Positions 972 through 24,826 of a stretch of 30,696 nucleotides of DNA are shown here, one piece after another. Position numbers and translations under genes: made by a program. Below the pieces are notes generated by a model. It ran no database searches and was not told where the DNA came from. It saw only the letters and a program-made list of their open reading frames with translations. This DNA is from a virus, in IMG/VR virus record IMGVR_UViG_3300027779_000099, positions 1-30,696 of that record; one strand, written 5' to 3'. Position 1 is the first letter of the stretch. The number at the start of each line of letters is the position of its first letter.

Positions 972-1358
972 ATGAAACTAAGTAAAATAATAAAGGAGAT
1001 TAATAAAGATGAGATCAATATGATTGGTTATGATCTAAATGATCTTGAATTTGAAAATGTCAAACATATATTTCCAAAAATAACAGATGGAAATTACGGA
1101 TCATCAGTAGCATTTCCCGAACCATCCGATAGTATGGTAATGATTGGAAATGAAGACTCTTTAGAACGCTGGAAAGTAGATATTAAAAGCAGATATGGTA
1201 ATGTAGAAATAAGGTTCTACCCTCATGCAACAGCATGGTTCGATAAAGTAAAAGTACACGATAGTAAATTTATACAAGACAAAGAGGATTATACAAACGC
1301 CAAAGGACGTTGGCTAGATAAAGAAAGAAAAGCCGGAAAGTCATCTGGATTAGATTAA
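972..1358 (+). CDS. Small protein with capsid-targeting-like N terminus, function unknown
   Basis: A 128-aa protein that I do not recognise as a family. It starts MKLSKIIKE, the clearest form of the N-terminal tag shared by several proteins here, with Glu9 at the position where a gp21-type protease would cut. The rest is a mixed alpha/beta sequence with aromatic strands (around residues 80-95) and a highly charged, Lys-rich C terminus. By analogy with T4 internal proteins it may be packaged in the head and injected. It is preceded by a TATTTATA element and followed after 10 nt by the kinase-like gene. The tag assignment is inference from pattern; no enzymatic motif is visible. Confidence 0.6.
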   Translation: MKLSKIIKEINKDEINMIGYDLNDLEFENVKHIFPKITDGNYGSSVAFPEPSDSMVMIGNEDSLERWKVDIKSRYGNVEIRFYPHATAWFDKVKVHDSKFIQDKEDYTNAKGRWLDKERKAGKSSGLD

Positions 1359-2787: not shown

Positions 2788-3566
2788 TAAAGCAAGGAAT
2801 GAATATTCTAAAAGAGCATTCAAAAAAGAGATTAGAATTCAACCCAGATTTAAAACAAATAAATTTTCTCGATAGAAGAGTGTACCAAAGATCGGAAGGA
2901 GTATTTTACCCATCTGTAACTACAATACTCCAGTATATGCCCAAGAATAAGTTTTTCGAAACATGGATGAAAGACGTTGGGCATAATGCCGATCTAATTA
3001 TGCGGAGAGCAGGTAAACAGGGTACACAGGTACATGAAGCAGCTGAACAGTTAGTATTAGGAGAAGAAATTAGTTGGATAGACGATTACGGTAAAGCAAA
3101 GTATAGTCAACTAGTATGGGAAATGATTCTTAAGTTTTACGACTTCTGGACAACCCATAAACCAGAACTAATATCATCAGAAGACTTTGTATGGTCAGAT
3201 AAACATAAATATGCAGGTACAGCAGACCTAGTAGTAAAGATGAATGGCGAAATTTGGTTATTAGATATTAAAACCTCTAACTCAGTACACAAGTCATTTG
3301 ACTTACAGTTAGCTGCATATGCTAAAGGATTAGAAGAATCTAAAGGCATTAAAGTAGAAAGAACAGGTATCATTTGGCTAAAAGCACATTCAAGAGGTCC
3401 TTCTAAACAAAAGAACGTAATACAGGGTAAAGGATGGAAGTTATTACAGATAGATGATATCGAAACTAATTTCGAATTGTTTAATAGTATTTATAATCTT
3501 TATAGGTTAGACCACCCTACAACAGAGCCTATTTATTATAAATACCCAACAAAATTAAAGATATGA
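2784..3566 (+). CDS. PD-(D/E)XK nuclease of the RecB/Cas4 type
   Basis: A 260-aa single-domain nuclease. The expected motifs occur in order: GTQVHEAAE at 80-88 (His84), an SSEDFV element at 131-136, AGTADLV at 144-150 (Asp148), LLDIKTS at 159-165 (Asp161 and Lys163), and QLAAYAKG at 175-182. Together these form the PD-(D/E)XK active site of RecB-, AddB- and Cas4-like exonucleases. It overlaps the primase gene by 4 nt and the lipoprotein gene by 4 nt. Next to the primase, a role in replication, recombination or host-DNA degradation is likely. There is no cysteine cluster for a Cas4-type iron-sulphur site, so a plain RecB-like exonuclease is the better reading. Confidence 0.8.
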   Translation: MIKQGMNILKEHSKKRLEFNPDLKQINFLDRRVYQRSEGVFYPSVTTILQYMPKNKFFETWMKDVGHNADLIMRRAGKQGTQVHEAAEQLVLGEEISWIDDYGKAKYSQLVWEMILKFYDFWTTHKPELISSEDFVWSDKHKYAGTADLVVKMNGEIWLLDIKTSNSVHKSFDLQLAAYAKGLEESKGIKVERTGIIWLKAHSRGPSKQKNVIQGKGWKLLQIDDIETNFELFNSIYNLYRLDHPTTEPIYYKYPTKLKI

Positions 3567-4537
3567 AGAACTTAATCTACCTATTATTAGTAACATTAAC
3601 AATTTCTTGCTCATCTTTTCGTGTATCTACATTAAACTATGACCCAATCTATGGTCCTGATGGAACTGAAATAAAAGTAGATACTATTGAATCCGAATGG
3701 GAATTAAATAGGAAGTTTAGATTTGATGATAGATTTAGATGGGATTTTGCACAATATGCAATGACACAAAACCTAAGATGGCATACTGATTTTTATTGGA
3801 ATAACAGAATGCATAGAAGTCCATTCGCATCATCCTTTGATTTCTATTGGAACTCAAATGAATACTGGTGGAATTGGGCAAGTAACTATCCATTTAATTA
3901 TGGATTCAATCATTGGGATAGATTTGGATTCTATGGTAACTATGGGTATAATAGTTGGAATAATTGGGGGAGTTATGGATATGGTTGGAATCATTGGGGT
4001 TGGAGACAACAAATGAATACTTATGCTTGGCAACATAGAAATAGACCTAATACAGCTTATATTAATGGTAGAAGAGGTTCAAATATTAATAATAATAATA
4101 TTGGCAGACGTGTTGTAGATATAGTCAATAATAATAACAATAGTGTTAGTAGTGTTATAAGAATAAACAAACCAAGACCAAATACAACAACAGAAACAGT
4201 TGATAATACATTAGATTGGAATATTAATGATATAACAAATACATTAATTAAAAATTTTAATGGAAACGTAATAAGAGTTTATACTAATCCAAACAATGTA
4301 CCTAATGTAATTATTAGAAATAACAACAACAGTAACAATAATAGTAATAACGTAAGAGGTTCTTGGAAACCCAATAATAACTCAAGTAATAATAACGTTA
4401 GAGTTTATCAAAGACCATCGAATAATGGTTCATCCAATATTAGAAACTCATCATCTAATAATACAAAGTCATCATCTTCTTCATCAAATAATACAAGAAG
4501 CAGCGTTAAAAGTGGAAATAATAATAAAAGACAATAA
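3563..4537 (+). CDS. Asn/Ser- and aromatic-rich lipoprotein
   Basis: The 324-aa product begins with a short lipoprotein signal peptide (charged MKN, hydrophobic 4-14, then ISC with Cys16 as the lipidation residue). Residues 58-155 are very rich in Trp, Tyr, Asn and Gly. Residues 172-324 are almost wholly Asn, Ser, Arg and Thr. I know this architecture from flavobacterial surface lipoproteins, which makes it a likely host-derived gene. The mature protein would sit in the outer membrane or envelope of a Bacteroidetes host, where superinfection exclusion or envelope modification are plausible roles. It overlaps the nuclease gene upstream and shares a TAATG junction with the P-loop kinase downstream. 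No catalytic motif is visible. Confidence 0.7.
   Translation: MKNLIYLLLVTLTISCSSFRVSTLNYDPIYGPDGTEIKVDTIESEWELNRKFRFDDRFRWDFAQYAMTQNLRWHTDFYWNNRMHRSPFASSFDFYWNSNEYWWNWASNYPFNYGFNHWDRFGFYGNYGYNSWNNWGSYGYGWNHWGWRQQMNTYAWQHRNRPNTAYINGRRGSNINNNNIGRRVVDIVNNNNNSVSSVIRINKPRPNTTTETVDNTLDWNINDITNTLIKNFNGNVIRVYTNPNNVPNVIIRNNNNSNNNSNNVRGSWKPNNNSSNNNVRVYQRPSNNGSSNIRNSSSNNTKSSSSSSNNTRSSVKSGNNNKRQ
4080..4534 (+). repeat. Low-complexity AAT/AGT-rich coding tract
   Basis: Runs of AAT and AAC Asn codons mixed with Ser codons encode the C-terminal half of the lipoprotein. The tract is imperfect and in frame, so it is a coding low-complexity region and not a microsatellite in non-coding DNA. It would be prone to length change by slippage. 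Confidence 0.6.
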
Positions 4538-5472
4538 TGAAACTAAGCGACATCATTTTAGAAGTTAATAATGGAAAACCAAAAGCAGTAATAATGGCTG
4601 GAGGAGCCGGTGTAGGTAAATCCTATATTCTTAATCAATTGCATTTAGATAGCCTAGAGCAATTTAATGCTGATAAATACGTTGAAGATCCTAAGAGCCC
4701 AATGTATAATAAGTTAGGACCAGCAGCAGCACAAAATGACAAAGATGTTAATTTAGCAATTGAAAACGGAACCAGTTTCGTATGGGATACAACAGCTTCA
4801 GGAGTACGTTTTATGAAGACGTTATCCAAACTAATAAGAAAAGGATACGATATATACATGGTAATGGTGTATTCTCACCCAATGATATCCTATATGCAAA
4901 ACTTTGCTAGAGAAAGAAACATTCCTGCACCAGCAGTATTCTCTACATGGAGAAATGTATACCAAAAAATAGCTGAATATAGTAAACTAGTTAATGGTAA
5001 TATTTCTATATTTGTAAATGACTATAATGGTAAATTTAAAAAAGAGGTAGAAGGTTTTAATACTGCAGCTAAAGGCGGAGTAGACGGAATTAAGAAGTAC
5101 CTAGAAAAATATAATGAACTAAAAGGAGTAGGTCAATCATCATTCTTTACTCCTATAGAAATGACACCTGAAGAAGAAAAAGCATTTGCTTCAGCAGTAT
5201 CCGGTATCAGTAGAGACATTAATAACAGAGGAGAAGATAAAGCTGTTAAAAAAGAATTCTTAAAAACATTTCAAAACAATGGAGTTGGACCTGGAGCAGA
5301 TAAATTAAAATTAGCTATTACTAAATATAACGACAGTAAAGATAAAAGAGATGCAGCCCATAACGATATATTAAAAAATATTGCAGATATGATATTCTCA
5401 CCTGAGTTTCAAGAGATATTAAGACATTCAACACCATCTGAAATAGATAGTAAAATTCAAAACTTTTTGTAA
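4537..5472 (+). CDS. Zeta-toxin-like P-loop kinase with capsid-targeting-like N terminus
   Basis: This 311-aa protein starts MKLSDIILE and is followed at once by a P-loop kinase domain: Walker A GGAGVGKS at 22-29, NADKYVED at 44-51, WDTTASG at 83-89 and a lid-type ARERNIPAP at 124-132 with two Arg. This is the pattern of zeta-toxin and polynucleotide-kinase-like small-molecule kinases. Zeta toxins phosphorylate UDP-N-acetylglucosamine, but the substrate here is not readable. Residues 190-311 form a helical, charged extension without a recognised domain. The tag at residues 1-9 suggests packaging into the head and delivery with the DNA. The start codon overlaps the lipoprotein stop (TAATG). 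Confidence 0.7.
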   Translation: MKLSDIILEVNNGKPKAVIMAGGAGVGKSYILNQLHLDSLEQFNADKYVEDPKSPMYNKLGPAAAQNDKDVNLAIENGTSFVWDTTASGVRFMKTLSKLIRKGYDIYMVMVYSHPMISYMQNFARERNIPAPAVFSTWRNVYQKIAEYSKLVNGNISIFVNDYNGKFKKEVEGFNTAAKGGVDGIKKYLEKYNELKGVGQSSFFTPIEMTPEEEKAFASAVSGISRDINNRGEDKAVKKEFLKTFQNNGVGPGADKLKLAITKYNDSKDKRDAAHNDILKNIADMIFSPEFQEILRHSTPSEIDSKIQNFL

Positions 5473-5475
5473 GAA

Positions 5476-6657
5476 ATGGCAATAGCACTATACCCAGGAG
5501 CATTTAAACCACCTCATAAAGGTCATTTTGAAGTAGCAAAACTACTACTTAATGGAAGTTATAATGGACAAGTATATAATATAGACGATTATACTGAAAA
5601 AGGAGGGAGTGTTCTCAATAACGATAAGAGCACTAAACCGGATATTAGTAAAGTAATAATCTTTCCCGGTGGCGGAGAACGTAACGGTATAACTAAAGAA
5701 GAAGCAACCGCTATATGGACAATGTATGCAAAACACCTACCAGGTGTAGTAATAGAAGATGGACAGAAAAACCCAATGTTTGCAGCTAAAGATTATGCTA
5801 AAGCAAATCCAACACAAGAGTTTTATGCAATAACAGGTATTAGAGAAGAAGAAGATTTAGTAGATTTAAAAAGAGTTACTACATTTAAAAATGTACCTAA
5901 CGTTGGAGGATTAGTTATCTCTAATAAAGCAACTCAAGGAGTTAGAGCTACTAATTTACGCAACATAGCACTACAGGGCAGTCTAGACGATATTAGAGAC
6001 TTCTTCCCAAAAGAACTAAGCAGAGAAGATCTATTAGAAATAATTAATATGTTAAAATCATCAATAATACAAGAAGCTTTTGAAGGCGCAGCATTCAAAA
6101 CAATAGACGACCACTTTTTAAAAGAAGATACTCCTTTCAAAGCAGCACCTTCTAAAGATAGAGAAAAACTTGGAGCACTATACACCCAATTACAGGGTAT
6201 GATTAGTACTGATTCATATAGTTTACAAATGAACCAAGACCATATTAGAATCTCATTAAGTAATAATAAGAGAATAGATAATTTTGAATTCGCACCATTT
6301 ATGGCATCCTTATTAGAGTATATGATAGATGAAGGAATGAAGATAATACCATTACCCGAAATAAAGATTAAACAAGATATTACAGAAGCAGACAACTTCT
6401 TCGGAAGAACAGCTTACTACAATCCAGGAGAAAAAGAACTAGTAGTCTATACATTAGGTAGACACCCTAAAGATGTTATGAGATCTTTTTCACACGAAAT
6501 GATTCACCATGAACAGAACCTACAAGGACGTTTAAAAAGTTACGGTACTACCAATACCAATGAAGACGATGCTTTAGTAGAAATAGAAAAAGAAGCATAT
6601 CTAAGAGGAAACATTACATTTAGAAACTGGGAAGATAAAATAAAGAATGAGCGTTAA
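5476..6657 (+). CDS. Nucleotidyltransferase (NMNAT/cytidylyltransferase type) fused to an HExxH metalloprotease-like domain
   Basis: The 393-aa product has an N-terminal nucleotidyltransferase: LYPGAFKPPHKGH at 5-17 carries the HxGH motif (His14, His17), and SNKATQGVRATNLR at 149-162 corresponds to the C-terminal Ser/Arg motif. Such enzymes move AMP or CMP onto a small substrate, as in NAD synthesis. Residues 192-200 read MLKSSIIQE, a near copy of the tag at the N termini of neighbouring proteins. The C-terminal part contains SHEMIHHEQ at 339-347, an HExxH zinc site (His340, Glu341, His344), with candidate third ligands Glu369-Glu373. The gene may therefore be a fusion, or may contain an internal start at 6049. 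Its end overlaps the HAD gene by 11 nt. Confidence 0.75.
   Translation: MAIALYPGAFKPPHKGHFEVAKLLLNGSYNGQVYNIDDYTEKGGSVLNNDKSTKPDISKVIIFPGGGERNGITKEEATAIWTMYAKHLPGVVIEDGQKNPMFAAKDYAKANPTQEFYAITGIREEEDLVDLKRVTTFKNVPNVGGLVISNKATQGVRATNLRNIALQGSLDDIRDFFPKELSREDLLEIINMLKSSIIQEAFEGAAFKTIDDHFLKEDTPFKAAPSKDREKLGALYTQLQGMISTDSYSLQMNQDHIRISLSNNKRIDNFEFAPFMASLLEYMIDEGMKIIPLPEIKIKQDITEADNFFGRTAYYNPGEKELVVYTLGRHPKDVMRSFSHEMIHHEQNLQGRLKSYGTTNTNEDDALVEIEKEAYLRGNITFRNWEDKIKNER
6049..6657 (+). other. Possible internal translation product: tagged HExxH domain alone
   Basis: An in-frame ATG at 6049 inside the nucleotidyltransferase gene would give a 202-aa product beginning MLKSSIIQE. That matches MKLSDIILE and MKLSKIIKE in length, in Ser4 or Ser5, in the I-I pair at 6-7 and in Glu at 9. 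The bases before it (AATAATTAAT) look like other start regions in this phage. The alternative is a fossil of gene fusion, with no initiation here. Confidence 0.35.
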
Positions 6658-7192
6658 ACTAACAGATTTACTAGAAACATATCCACTACCTGAACAAAAG
6701 GTAGTTCCACCATATCAAATATACTGCGATATGGATGGAGTATTAACTGATTTTGAATCCCGATTCGATCACTTTACTGGAATGCACCCTCAAGATTACG
6801 AAAAGAAACACGGAGCACCAGGATTTTGGGATTTGATTGATAACCAAATTGGAGTTAAATTCTGGGTAGGTATGGATTGGATGCCTGGAGGAGAGCAACT
6901 ATGGAACTTTATTAAACCATACCAACCACACTTACTTACTTCTCCTTCTAGAAATGATAATTCTAGATTAGGAAAAAACCTATGGGTTAAGAATAATTTA
7001 AACCCAAAACCAAAAGTGATATTTGCATACTCAAAAGATAAACAAACAAAAGCTAACCCACAGAGTATATTAATAGATGATAAAGGATCGAATATAAAAG
7101 AATGGGCAGCAGCCAACGGCATTGCAATTAGGTGTAAAGATGGAAATGTAGTCCCTGTTATAAAACAACTAAAAGACTTAGGTTATGAATGA
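6647..7192 (+). CDS. HAD-family 5'(3')-deoxyribonucleotidase-like phosphatase with tag-like N terminus
   Basis: This 181-aa haloacid-dehalogenase-type phosphatase has motif I CDMDGVLTDF at 27-36 (nucleophile Asp28, acid/base Asp30). Motif II is LLTSPS at 96-101, a Lys is available around 120-135, and motif IV is LIDDKGSN at 142-149. The cap region with FWDLID and FWVGMDW resembles 5'(3')-deoxyribonucleotidases, which dephosphorylate nucleoside monophosphates. The N terminus MSVKLTDLLE fits the recurring tag, with L-L-E ending at residue 10 before the domain starts at about residue 22. Overlaps with both neighbours point to one translation unit with the nucleotidyltransferase gene, suggesting a shared nucleotide-metabolism role. 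Confidence 0.75.
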   Translation: MSVKLTDLLETYPLPEQKVVPPYQIYCDMDGVLTDFESRFDHFTGMHPQDYEKKHGAPGFWDLIDNQIGVKFWVGMDWMPGGEQLWNFIKPYQPHLLTSPSRNDNSRLGKNLWVKNNLNPKPKVIFAYSKDKQTKANPQSILIDDKGSNIKEWAAANGIAIRCKDGNVVPVIKQLKDLGYE

Positions 7193-19632: not shown

Positions 19633-20211
19633 ATGGCACAATTATTAGTAGACGTTACCCCGTTTAAATCTACACTAACAGAATCCAAAACTAAACCTGG
19701 TATTTTTGAAGTAGAAGGTGTTATGCAAAGAGCTGGATCGACCAATCAAAACGGTAGGGTTTATGACAAGGAAATACTAGTAAGAGAGTCTAAGAGATAT
19801 GTAGATGAGTTCGTTAATAGAGGAAATGCCTACGGAGAACTCGATCACCCAGAATCACCAATCGTATCATTAAAGAATGCTTCACACATCGTAAAAAAAT
19901 TATGGTGGAAAGGAGACGATTTAATGGGCAAGGTAGAACTTCTGAACACCCCTTCCGGAAACATTGTTAAAGAGATTATTAGAGCAGGACATACAATAGG
20001 TATTTCATCAAGAGGAACTGGTTCAGTTGAACAAACAAACGAAGGCGCTTTAGAAGTCCAACCTGATTTTGAATTAGTATGTTGGGACTTTGTATCTAAT
20101 CCATCAACCCATGGAGCATTTATGAATCCTATAGCACTACAGGAAGGTAAGACTAAAGTAAACAAATTCGCATTAGTTGATGCTATTATTAACGATATAT
20201 TACGCGCTTAA
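19633..20211 (+). CDS. Prohead protease (gp21-like)
   Basis: This 192-aa serine protease processes the prohead by cutting scaffold, capsid and internal proteins, typically after (L/I)-x-E. Evidence is GRVYDKEIL at 41-49, [10 protein letters not shown] at 67-76 with the catalytic His72, GISSRGTG at 123-130 with the nucleophile Ser (125 or 126), and the closing DFVSNPST at 152-159. The in-frame ATG at 19588 lies inside the preceding gene, so 19633 ([11 protein letters not shown]) is the better start. T4 gp21 is 212 aa. Its presence here supports the reading of I-I-x-E tags as cleavage signals. The stop overlaps the next start (TAATG). Confidence 0.93.
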
Positions 20212-22195: not shown

Positions 22196-23197
22196 ATGGC
22201 AAACAAAGAACTATTTAAGCAAGCTATTGCTGAAGCTAAGTCTGTTCGTGAAGCTGCTATTGCAAACGCTAAAGAAGCATTAGAAGAATCGTTAACACCT
22301 CATCTTAAGGATATGTTGGCTGCTAAACTTCAGGAAATGGATGACTCCAATACTGATGAAGAAGTAGTTAATGAAACTGAAGCTGATGTTGACGAAACTA
22401 AAGAAGCAACTAAAGAAGAAGCAATAACAGAAGAAGAACATGATGAAGAAACAGGAATAGAAGCCGAGGATGAATCTGAAGAATCAGAGGACGGAGCAGA
22501 GCTTACCGCAGATCTAGAAGGAGAAGAAGTAGAAGATGACATCAACGTAGGAGATATGAAATTATCAGACCTTAAAGATGTAATCCAAGACTTACTTTCC
22601 CAAGTAGTAGGTGGAGAACAAGAAGAATTAGGCGCAGAGTTAGACGGAGGAGAAATCGATGCAGCACCATTAGATGGAGCAATCGAAGAACCAGCTGACG
22701 AAGAAGAAATCGATCTTGAAGAACTACTTAGAGAATTAGAAGGTACTAACGCAGCTGTTGCAGAAGAAAAAGCAACAGAAGAAGTAGTATCTGAAAAAGT
22801 TACCAACGAAGAAGAAGAAGAAGTTAAAAAAGAAGCAGTAGATGCTGAGTTAAACGAAGCTTTAGACACAGTAAAAAGCTTAAAGACTCAATTATCTGAA
22901 GTTAACACTTTAAATTCTAAACTACTTTACGTTAACAAAATATTCAAAGCTAACAACTTAACTGAATCACAAAAGGTGAACATTATCGCAGCCTTTGATA
23001 AAGCTGAAACAGTAAAAGAAGTTAAGCTTGTTTATGAAACTGTTGCTGGAAATATCGCTAAACCTGTTAACTCAATAAAAGAGGTAAAAGGAATGGCAAG
23101 TAAGGCTACTGGTACAACAGCTAAAAAACCAGGAGTTATTACAGAAGCAAACGAAACAGTTCGTAGAATGCAAAAATTAGCTGGAATAATAAATTAA
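22196..23197 (+). CDS. Prohead core scaffold protein (gp22-like)
   Basis: The 333-aa protein has the composition of a T4-type scaffold: Glu/Asp/Ala-rich, helical and coiled. The start is MANKELFKQAIAEAKSVREAAIANAKEAL cut in two helices, with I-A-E before Ala14, an ideal gp21 cleavage site. A long acidic stretch covers residues 55-215, and a helical C terminus ends with VRRMQKLAGI. The scaffold builds the prohead core and is degraded to small peptides by gp21. Its position just before the capsid gene matches T4 gp22. It has a long structured leader and no Shine-Dalgarno sequence. Confidence 0.85.
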   Translation: MANKELFKQAIAEAKSVREAAIANAKEALEESLTPHLKDMLAAKLQEMDDSNTDEEVVNETEADVDETKEATKEEAITEEEHDEETGIEAEDESEESEDGAELTADLEGEEVEDDINVGDMKLSDLKDVIQDLLSQVVGGEQEELGAELDGGEIDAAPLDGAIEEPADEEEIDLEELLRELEGTNAAVAEEKATEEVVSEKVTNEEEEEVKKEAVDAELNEALDTVKSLKTQLSEVNTLNSKLLYVNKIFKANNLTESQKVNIIAAFDKAETVKEVKLVYETVAGNIAKPVNSIKEVKGMASKATGTTAKKPGVITEANETVRRMQKLAGIIN

Positions 23198-23227: not shown

Positions 23228-24826
23228 ATGGAAATTAACAACCTATTAGAAAGCGCAAACTCCTTCAAAAGCTTACAAGCTGATGCAGGTCGTTTAGCTG
23301 ACAAATGGCAAAAATCAGGTCTTCTTGAAGGTCTTGAGAAAAAAGATACCCAAAACATGGCTATGATCCTAGAGAACCAAGCTAAGCAAATTGTTGCTGA
23401 AGCAAATTCAACAGGAGCTACTGGAAGAGGTGTTGGCTTTACAGCCGGCGCTGGAGAACAGTGGGCAGGAGTAGCTTTACCGTTAGTAAGAAAAGTATTT
23501 TCTCAGATCGTAGCAAAAGACTTTGTATCGGTTCAACCAATGAACCTACCTTCAGGTCTAGTATTTTATCTAGACTTTAAGTACGGAACTACAAAAGGTC
23601 AAAGAACAGACGGAGACAATCTTTACGGAAACGTAACAGAAGGTTCTACGAAGATGACTATTGACACTGAAGCTTCTGGAGGTCTTTACGGCGCCGGAAA
23701 ATTTGGATACTCTATCAACGAGCACAGTTTAACTGTTGCTTCACAAGATACTGGATCCGCTGCCACATCTGCATCTATTGCATACAACGACGAACTTATA
23801 CCATCTACATTCAACACTTATGTTGTTGCAATGTCAGCTGTAGATTTCGACGCTGAAGCAGTTAGATCATTTAAACTCTATTCTGCATCAACTGATGTTA
23901 CTTCTAACCCAGAATTAACTACAGTAAGCGGAACAGATGTAACTTTCGTAATTACTGGATCACATGCAATACCTGTTACAGGAGCATTTGCTGGATCTGT
24001 AAAATACTCTCAAGCACCTGGAGACAGTTCAAGAGGCGACTTTGAAGCTTCTGGATCTGCTGCAGTAGATAGCTCAATCACAATACCTGAAATAGACGTT
24101 CAGTTAAAAAGTGAAGCAGTTGTTGCTAAGACAAGAAAGTTAAAAGCACAATGGACACCTGAATTCGCACAGGATCTTAATGCTTATCACTCAATCGATG
24201 CTGAAGCAGAATTAACTTCATTATTGTCTGAGTACATCTCAATGGAAATCGATTTAGAGATCCTTGATATGTTAATTGTTAATGCTAGAACTACTGAAAA
24301 GTGGTCAGCAGAAAACAATAAAGTATGGAACGGTACAGCATTTACTACTTCTACTTCTGATTTTTATAATACTCAAGGACAATGGTTCCAAACATTAGGA
24401 ACTAAAATCCAAAAAGTATCTAATAAGATTCATCAGAAGACTCTTAGAGGCGGTGCTAACTTTATCGTTTGTTCTCCAACTGTTGCAACTATTCTAGAAT
24501 CAATTCCAGGATATGCTGCTAACACAAGTGGTGATCAAGACCAATTTGCAATGGGCGTACAAAAAGTTGGTGCATTAAATAACAGATTCCAAGTTTACAA
24601 GAATCCTTACATGACAGAACAAATCTTATTGTTAGGATACAGAGGAAGTCAATTCCTTGAAACTGGTGCTGTTTATGCTCCATATGTACCTTTATTAATG
24701 ACTCCACTAGTATATGATCCTGAGACCTTCACTCCAAGAAAAGGCCTTATGACAAGATATGCTAAGAAGATCATTAGACCAGAATTCTACGGAAAAATCT
24801 TTATCTCTGATTTAAATCAAATCTAA
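23228..24826 (+). CDS. Major capsid protein (gp23-like)
   Basis: The 532-aa protein (T4 gp23 is 521) builds the head shell. Recognisable T4 gp23 elements are VQPMNLPSGLVFYLDF (about 102-117), the KTRKLKAQWTPEFAQDLNA region followed by HSIDAEAELTSLLSEYIS, and the C-terminal DPETFTPRKGLMTRYAKK. The likely gp21 cut is I-V-A-E58 before Ala59, close to the T4 gp23 cut after residue 65. The N terminus MEINNLLESA itself resembles the short tag. Residues 170-290, rich in Ser, Ala and Thr, probably correspond to the insertion domain. A strong intrinsic terminator follows the gene. Confidence 0.95.
   Translation: MEINNLLESANSFKSLQADAGRLADKWQKSGLLEGLEKKDTQNMAMILENQAKQIVAEANSTGATGRGVGFTAGAGEQWAGVALPLVRKVFSQIVAKDFVSVQPMNLPSGLVFYLDFKYGTTKGQRTDGDNLYGNVTEGSTKMTIDTEASGGLYGAGKFGYSINEHSLTVASQDTGSAATSASIAYNDELIPSTFNTYVVAMSAVDFDAEAVRSFKLYSASTDVTSNPELTTVSGTDVTFVITGSHAIPVTGAFAGSVKYSQAPGDSSRGDFEASGSAAVDSSITIPEIDVQLKSEAVVAKTRKLKAQWTPEFAQDLNAYHSIDAEAELTSLLSEYISMEIDLEILDMLIVNARTTEKWSAENNKVWNGTAFTTSTSDFYNTQGQWFQTLGTKIQKVSNKIHQKTLRGGANFIVCSPTVATILESIPGYAANTSGDQDQFAMGVQKVGALNNRFQVYKNPYMTEQILLLGYRGSQFLETGAVYAPYVPLLMTPLVYDPETFTPRKGLMTRYAKKIIRPEFYGKIFISDLNQI

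Follow-up and report, generated by a model that had tools for sequence, protein, structure and literature searches.

A conserved (I/L)-x-E element between transferase and metalloprotease modules suggests a head-protease-processed cargo precursor in T4-like phages

Why does a peptide resembling the N-terminal tags of neighbouring proteins lie in the middle of an enzyme? The question is raised by a 393-aa protein encoded on a stretch of 30,696 nucleotides (IMG/VR record IMGVR_UViG_3300027779_000099), here called the window, which is a structural-gene fragment of a marine T4-like phage. Residues 192-200 of the protein read MLKSSIIQE, with an ATG at 6049 and 202 residues from Met192 onward. A loose 9-mer pattern that fits this peptide also fits the N-terminal tags MKLSKIIKE (972) and MKLSDIILE (4537). 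SHEMIHHEQ occupies 339-347 of the protein, and ITE lies at 302-304, just ahead of Ala305. The peptides, the start at 6049 and the length from Met192 had been reported in a first-pass annotation of the sequence and were reproduced here. The features of the gene are as follows (coordinates of the window).

5476..6657, plus strand: putative precursor gene, NMNAT/PPAT-like nucleotidyltransferase, linker and HExxH metalloprotease (393 aa; 79 related viral loci)
5476..6057, plus strand: nucleotidyltransferase module (NM), residues 1-194, from Foldseek PPAT/NadD matches and the ends of the transferase-only proteins of L207 and L208
6058..6075, plus strand: site A, SSIIQE (195-200), predicted gp21 site with the cut after E200, from conservation and tag-end homology
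6076..6126, plus strand: linker 201-217, ending in a possible site B (L215-K216-E217); pLDDT <50 over 204-224
6151..6270, plus strand: small alpha/beta segment (226-265), missing from several relatives
6307..6654, plus strand: metalloprotease module MP1 (about 278-393)
6493..6510, plus strand: HEMIHH (340-345), HExxH zinc site with H340, E341 and H344 invariant

Conservation of the junction element and its position at the module border

A Pfam search found no family for the 393-aa protein (P0001), and its match to the PHROG 395 cytidyltransferase was weak (E=5e-4). The HxGH-type motif in GAFKPPHKGHF (PPHKGHF) and Foldseek matches of the transferase part to PPAT (E=3e-5) and NadD (E=1e-4) suggest that the upstream module adopts the fold of the NMNAT/PPAT family. 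The downstream module is a predicted zincin metalloprotease, in which H340, E341 and H344 are invariant across 42 sequences. No cellular relatives of MP1 were found among pattern matches in genome contigs.

Taken from one sequence alone, the likeness of MLKSSIIQE to N-terminal tags is suggestive only. Internal matches to the 9-mer numbered 0.002 in the shuffled window proteome, for a pattern that was widened afterwards to cover its target, and the [IL][IL]xE core occurred internally 20 times against 14.9 expected in the window proteome, which is not unusual. The rarity of the 9-mer was rejected as evidence, the pattern being post hoc and IIxE alone not being enriched. Because this single-sequence evidence is weak, it is conservation that argues against a chance resemblance.

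The relatives encoded at the 79 viral loci were represented in an alignment of 43 rows, comprising 31 non-redundant sequences. E200 was retained in 30/31 of these and Ile, Val or Leu was found at position 198 in 26/31, while residue 199 varied (S, A, Q, N, D, E or T). A fixed E200 and a hydrophobic 198 around a variable 199 form the pattern expected from a protease specific for (I/L)-x-E. T4 gp21 cuts after L/I-x-E (PMC9026906), and in the window protein IIQE occupies the corresponding position, 197-200. At the linker, relatives carry strings such as SIVAE, AIVSE and SIIAE, close to the capsid protein sequence KQIVAE↓AN (arrows mark the border after the element). Exceptions included K or Q at P3 in two relatives (L055 and L061), PSE in a third (L060) and the Flavobacterium phage immuto, which has Ser at 200 but VVKE↓GSSGT downstream. 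Residues 201-225 are variable, with indels, and a zinc ribbon is inserted there in L014-L016.

Two transferase-only proteins, L207_7 (ending ...IEQILKF) and L208_26 (ending ...IAKILGI), both align to about residue 194 of the window protein. Because they stop there, Met192-Leu-Lys is read as closing the transferase, not as opening a tag. The likeness claimed in the first-pass annotation is thus kept for the junction element SSIIQE (195-200) and given up for the starting Met, since Met192-Leu193-Lys194 forms part of the final helix of the transferase. A check for a domain boundary near residue 190 had been proposed in the first-pass annotation. An AlphaFold model built from 42 sequences, with immuto left out, predicts a boundary near residue 200: confidence collapses after about this position, the block values across 181-220 falling from 85 to 69, 47 and 38. 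Despite this drop, the model draws a single helix through 183-215.

In most marine relatives a second Glu lies right before GSSGT, about 17-22 residues after E200. It is often part of [ILV]xE (DITE↓G, DLKE↓G, VIKE↓G, ALQE↓G), and several relatives have KKE or TKE; the window counterpart is HFLKE217↓DTP. A two-site linker that would lose a small peptide is therefore a possible reading of the sequences, though a weaker one than site A. The first-pass annotation had placed a second site at ITE304, which we discard: it lies in the ordered metalloprotease fold (block pLDDT 84) and is not conserved. A second site, if there is one, is more likely E217 (LKE), ~17 residues downstream of E200.

The element as a tag of stand-alone genes and at other junctions

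If the two modules were once separate, metalloprotease genes that stand alone and open with the tag might be found, as the first-pass annotation had pointed out. The search returned 12 distinct genes (L218-L221, L226, L253, L256-L258, L261, L264, L265). Their products start with a tag of ~10 residues that ends in [LI]xE directly before a conserved YAEPSK, for example MIKLSSLLSE↓IYAEPSKF, MTKLVNLLNE↓IYAEPSKF, MITLTNLLNE↓VYAEPSK and MVKLVSLINE↓IYAEPSK. Fused relatives carry KTP[IL]xE at the position of the tag end (KTPIEE↓MYAEPSKF, KTPIDE↓VMYAEPSKF). At the seven sampled loci (L194-L199, L202) stand-alone MP1 lies between an exonuclease gene and a homologue of window gene 7185, and the same slot in the window is the region of the fusion and its neighbours. 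Both modules thus exist separately elsewhere, which together with the tagged MP1 genes supports the proposed fusion of once-separate modules.

On well-supported branches of the MP1 tree, the label 'no transferase upstream' changes at least six times. Because this label takes in a fusion with a broken frame (L058) as well as two further forms (L201, L205), it is safer to speak of at least three changes that involve tagged stand-alone genes. In L058 (2641-3859) an apparent frame break interrupts the metalloprotease module, and the fusion was recovered as two overlapping tblastn pieces.

The element also recurs at other borders. At the junction before MP2 (GRYD...), Glu was present in 44/44 distinct strings and L, M or I at P3 in 42/44, with 12 different residues at P2. 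Stand-alone MP2 genes begin MKYIKQFENFLINE↓GRYD and MKYIKMFESFTLNE↓GRYD. Where MP1 follows other upstream modules it is still preceded by [ILV]xE (LALQE↓MYVEPS in L231, EDLKE↓G in L271, NLKE↓G in L272). Inserted segments in L230, L223 and L255 are bounded by two sites, and in L080 a whole tag-like stretch separates the transferase from a polymerase-beta-like module. In the predicted structure of the three-module protein L068, residues 4-14, 190-201 and 292-331 are among the stretches of low confidence, and these three coincide with the tag and the two junctions; the mean pLDDT of this model is only 68, and more low segments fall within modules, two of them in MP2. Since [IL]xE is also found inside the metalloprotease fold, accessibility must matter for cutting. 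Depletion of [IL]xE within modules was considered as a sign of protease avoidance and set aside, the ratios (0.65 overall, 0.29 for MP2, 1.24 for MP1) coming from homologous, non-independent sequences.

In larger fusions of 747-1428 aa (L091, L092, L089, L109, L146), the transferase and the two metalloproteases are joined by a HAD-like phosphatase and zinc ribbons, with LNE or INE at many of the borders. Various module junctions (L014-L016, L123-L133 and others) contain an inserted rubredoxin-like zinc ribbon (CDNCGWSW...CHKCGHDN), and these insertions repeatedly adjoin (I/L)-x-E sites.

Predicted processing in the prohead and its alternatives

The proposed cutter and the head-related occurrences of the element in the window are as follows.

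19633..20211, plus strand: prohead protease gp21 (Peptidase_S77), proposed cutter; start re-set to MAQLL
23390..23401, plus strand: major capsid protein residues 55-58 (IVAE), with KQIVAE↓AN as the likely maturation site; immuto has KQIVSE↓AN
4537..4563, plus strand: tag MKLSDIILE of the adjoining Zeta-toxin-like kinase (4537-5472)
6647..6676, plus strand: tag MSVKLTDLLE of the downstream 5'-nucleotidase (6647-7192)
972..998, plus strand: tag MKLSKIIKE of a small unknown protein

The prohead protease gene lies in the same genome as the fusion, and its ORF from 19588 matches PF03420 (E=6e-33) and PHROG 207 (E=7e-52). The protease itself bears FKSTLTE near its N-terminus. By its sequence, the capsid site is likely to be a maturation site of the same type as site A. 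In immuto, [IL]xE ending at residues 7-20 was present in 21/31 head or cargo proteins versus 27/188 others (Fisher P=2e-9), and control residue windows were flat, with no [IL]xE excess. Among the genes of the window, 16/32 have the motif ending at 7-20 versus 1-7 per later residue window. The pro-region of the capsid protein (window 23228-24826, residues 1-60) contains the (I/L)-x-E sites NLLE, GLLE, MILE and IVAE, and that of immuto is similar.

We propose that the 393-aa protein is a precursor cut in the prohead by gp21 after E200, possibly also after E217, freeing two enzymes that are retained in the head; we put the probability of this reading at roughly 0.8. The element, its conservation, its position at the module boundary, the tagged stand-alone modules and the gp21 gene were observed directly. 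Cleavage, head localisation, injection and the enzyme roles we infer from these sequences, as follows. The transferase-metalloprotease would be synthesised as a single chain and enter the prohead core, where gp21 would cut after E200 (I-I-Q-E↓A) and perhaps after E217 (L-K-E↓D). The products, an NMNAT-like enzyme and an HExxH metalloprotease, would both be kept in the head and presumably injected with the DNA. In single genes the (I/L)-x-E element would close an N-terminal capsid-targeting tag, and in fusions it would be the junction site. That gp21 could separate the two enzymes had been suggested in the first-pass annotation, and the fit of the site to gp21 specificity is consistent with this.

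Several points count against such a cut. Site A is not universal among the relatives, given the exceptions listed above. The helix through 183-215 in the AlphaFold model would need unfolding. The transferase is untagged in the window clade, the window protein beginning MAIALYPGAF with no N-terminal tag, and its entry into the head would be without T4 precedent; relatives in the L068/L070 clade do have N-terminal tags. The (I/L)-x-E element may itself act as an internal targeting signal that brings the transferase in; no precedent for an internal targeting element was found in the literature searched.

The main rival is that the metalloprotease domain cuts the precursor itself, with gp21 uninvolved. 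Its HExxH site is intact and invariant, and autoproteolysis by a built-in peptidase has been proposed for the polyvalent proteins of phages and plasmids, for example P1 DdrB (PMC5512222). However, (I/L)-x-E tag ends are also found on proteins that have no metalloprotease (the kinase, the 5'-nucleotidase, the scaffold and gp21), the element resembles the capsid protein site, and MP1 keeps a tag when it stands alone. We therefore regard self-cutting as improbable.

Alternatively, the protein may remain an uncut bifunctional enzyme, with E200 and the hydrophobic residues kept merely as part of an amphipathic C-terminal transferase helix. The continuous helix of the model and the partial conservation of M192, L193 and K194 would fit this. 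Yet transferase-only proteins stop before site A, the tags of stand-alone MP1 end at the equivalent residue, and the collapse in confidence begins at site A. Above all, [ILV]xE persists when the upstream module is not a transferase, and because the element stays when its upstream neighbour changes, we consider an uncut protein unlikely.

Internal initiation at Met192 (6049) to give a second, tagged metalloprotease product, the other option of the first-pass annotation, is very unlikely: the A/T-rich upstream context is like that of real starts, which show no obvious ribosome-binding motif, and an internal start is also described for T4 gp21 (PMC9026906), but Met192 is present in only 19/31 relatives, is replaced in the other 12/31 (by Ile, Leu, Thr, Ala or Asn) and belongs to the last transferase helix, and relatives more often keep Met202 (25/31), which is absent from the window.

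Gp21 processing thus remains our preferred reading, and the gene is best read as one member of a modular cargo polyprotein family in T4-like phages related to immuto. Somewhat better than even, in our estimate, are the odds of a broader proposal, that these are true head-cargo polyproteins. Several enzymes in one chain would enter the prohead jointly by internal targeting peptides and be released by the maturation protease, and the window clade would lose 201-217 as a short excised peptide. Tagged single genes and fusions would have been converted into each other repeatedly, because tag and junction would be the same element.

Comparison with known systems and implications

Tagged head cargo trimmed by the head protease is already known from T4, as are multidomain proteins delivered into the host. 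The T4 internal head proteins (IPI-III, Alt) share with the present family a short peptide ending in (I/L)-x-E, a gp21-type protease and a presumed place in the prohead core. In T4 the targeting peptide is terminal (Alt is also trimmed C-terminally), whereas here the element separates two enzyme modules within the chain. The polyvalent proteins (Iyer et al. 2017, PMC5512222) are likewise multidomain, often include a metallopeptidase and show extensive domain shuffling. They are delivered with the DNA and are proposed to be processed by a built-in peptidase; in the present family delivery is presumed, the junctions carry a head-protease motif and the modules also exist as tagged single genes.

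NMNAT-like proteins have been detected by mass spectrometry in the virions of cyanophages S-CBWM1, S-SZBM1, S-SCSM1 and S-CREM2, in proteomes that may contain highly expressed contaminants according to their authors (PMC10665884, PMC9602691). These virion data suggest that NMNAT-like cargo is common. The cyanophage NMNAT-like/cytidylyltransferase proteins that we examined belong to the NMNAT family, as here, but bear N-terminal T4-type tags (MKSYKEFLSE↓A, MKKFSDFLTE↓A and similar) and have no metalloprotease; identity to the window protein is only ~25-29% over the transferase region. The closest cultured homologue is immuto gp088, annotated as a NadR-like NMNAT (39% over 390 aa). It is longer (908 aa), site A is not conserved in it, and its modules run polymerase-beta-like, transferase, MP1, MP2. 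Its gene (L001 19122-21845), annotated as a single NMNAT, thus encodes four modules, two of them HExxH. Neither a publication on immuto virion proteins nor a virion proteome of this phage group was found in the open-access literature.

RNA viruses and retroviruses offer well-known examples of polyproteins processed by a maturation protease. In the literature searched, the tailed-phage cases concerned either the trimming of single proteins or polyvalent proteins presumed to process themselves. No family of enzyme polyproteins with head-protease motifs at the junctions and tagged single-gene modules was found in the open-access literature. If the proposal is true, (I/L)-x-E at module borders would reveal the head cargo of many uncultured phages from sequence. 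Annotations would be corrected, immuto gp088 giving up to four products in place of a single NMNAT, and the entry of an NMNAT-like enzyme and metalloproteases into the host at the first moment of infection would be explained. A role of the transferase in NAD supply during infection, or in restoring NAD against an NAD-depleting defence, would be a reasonable idea.

Two further observations concern the head region. The motif RMQKLAGII or WQKLAGII is found C-terminally in a scaffold-like protein and again close to the N-terminus in other proteins of the head region (window 22196-23197; immuto gp067 and gp083; L200, L201), and is possibly a second scaffold-binding tag. Between the nuclease gene and the tagged kinase gene, the window carries an Asn/Ser-rich, low-complexity, lipoprotein-like gene (3563-4537; MKNLIYLLLVTLTISCSSF) with no Pfam match.
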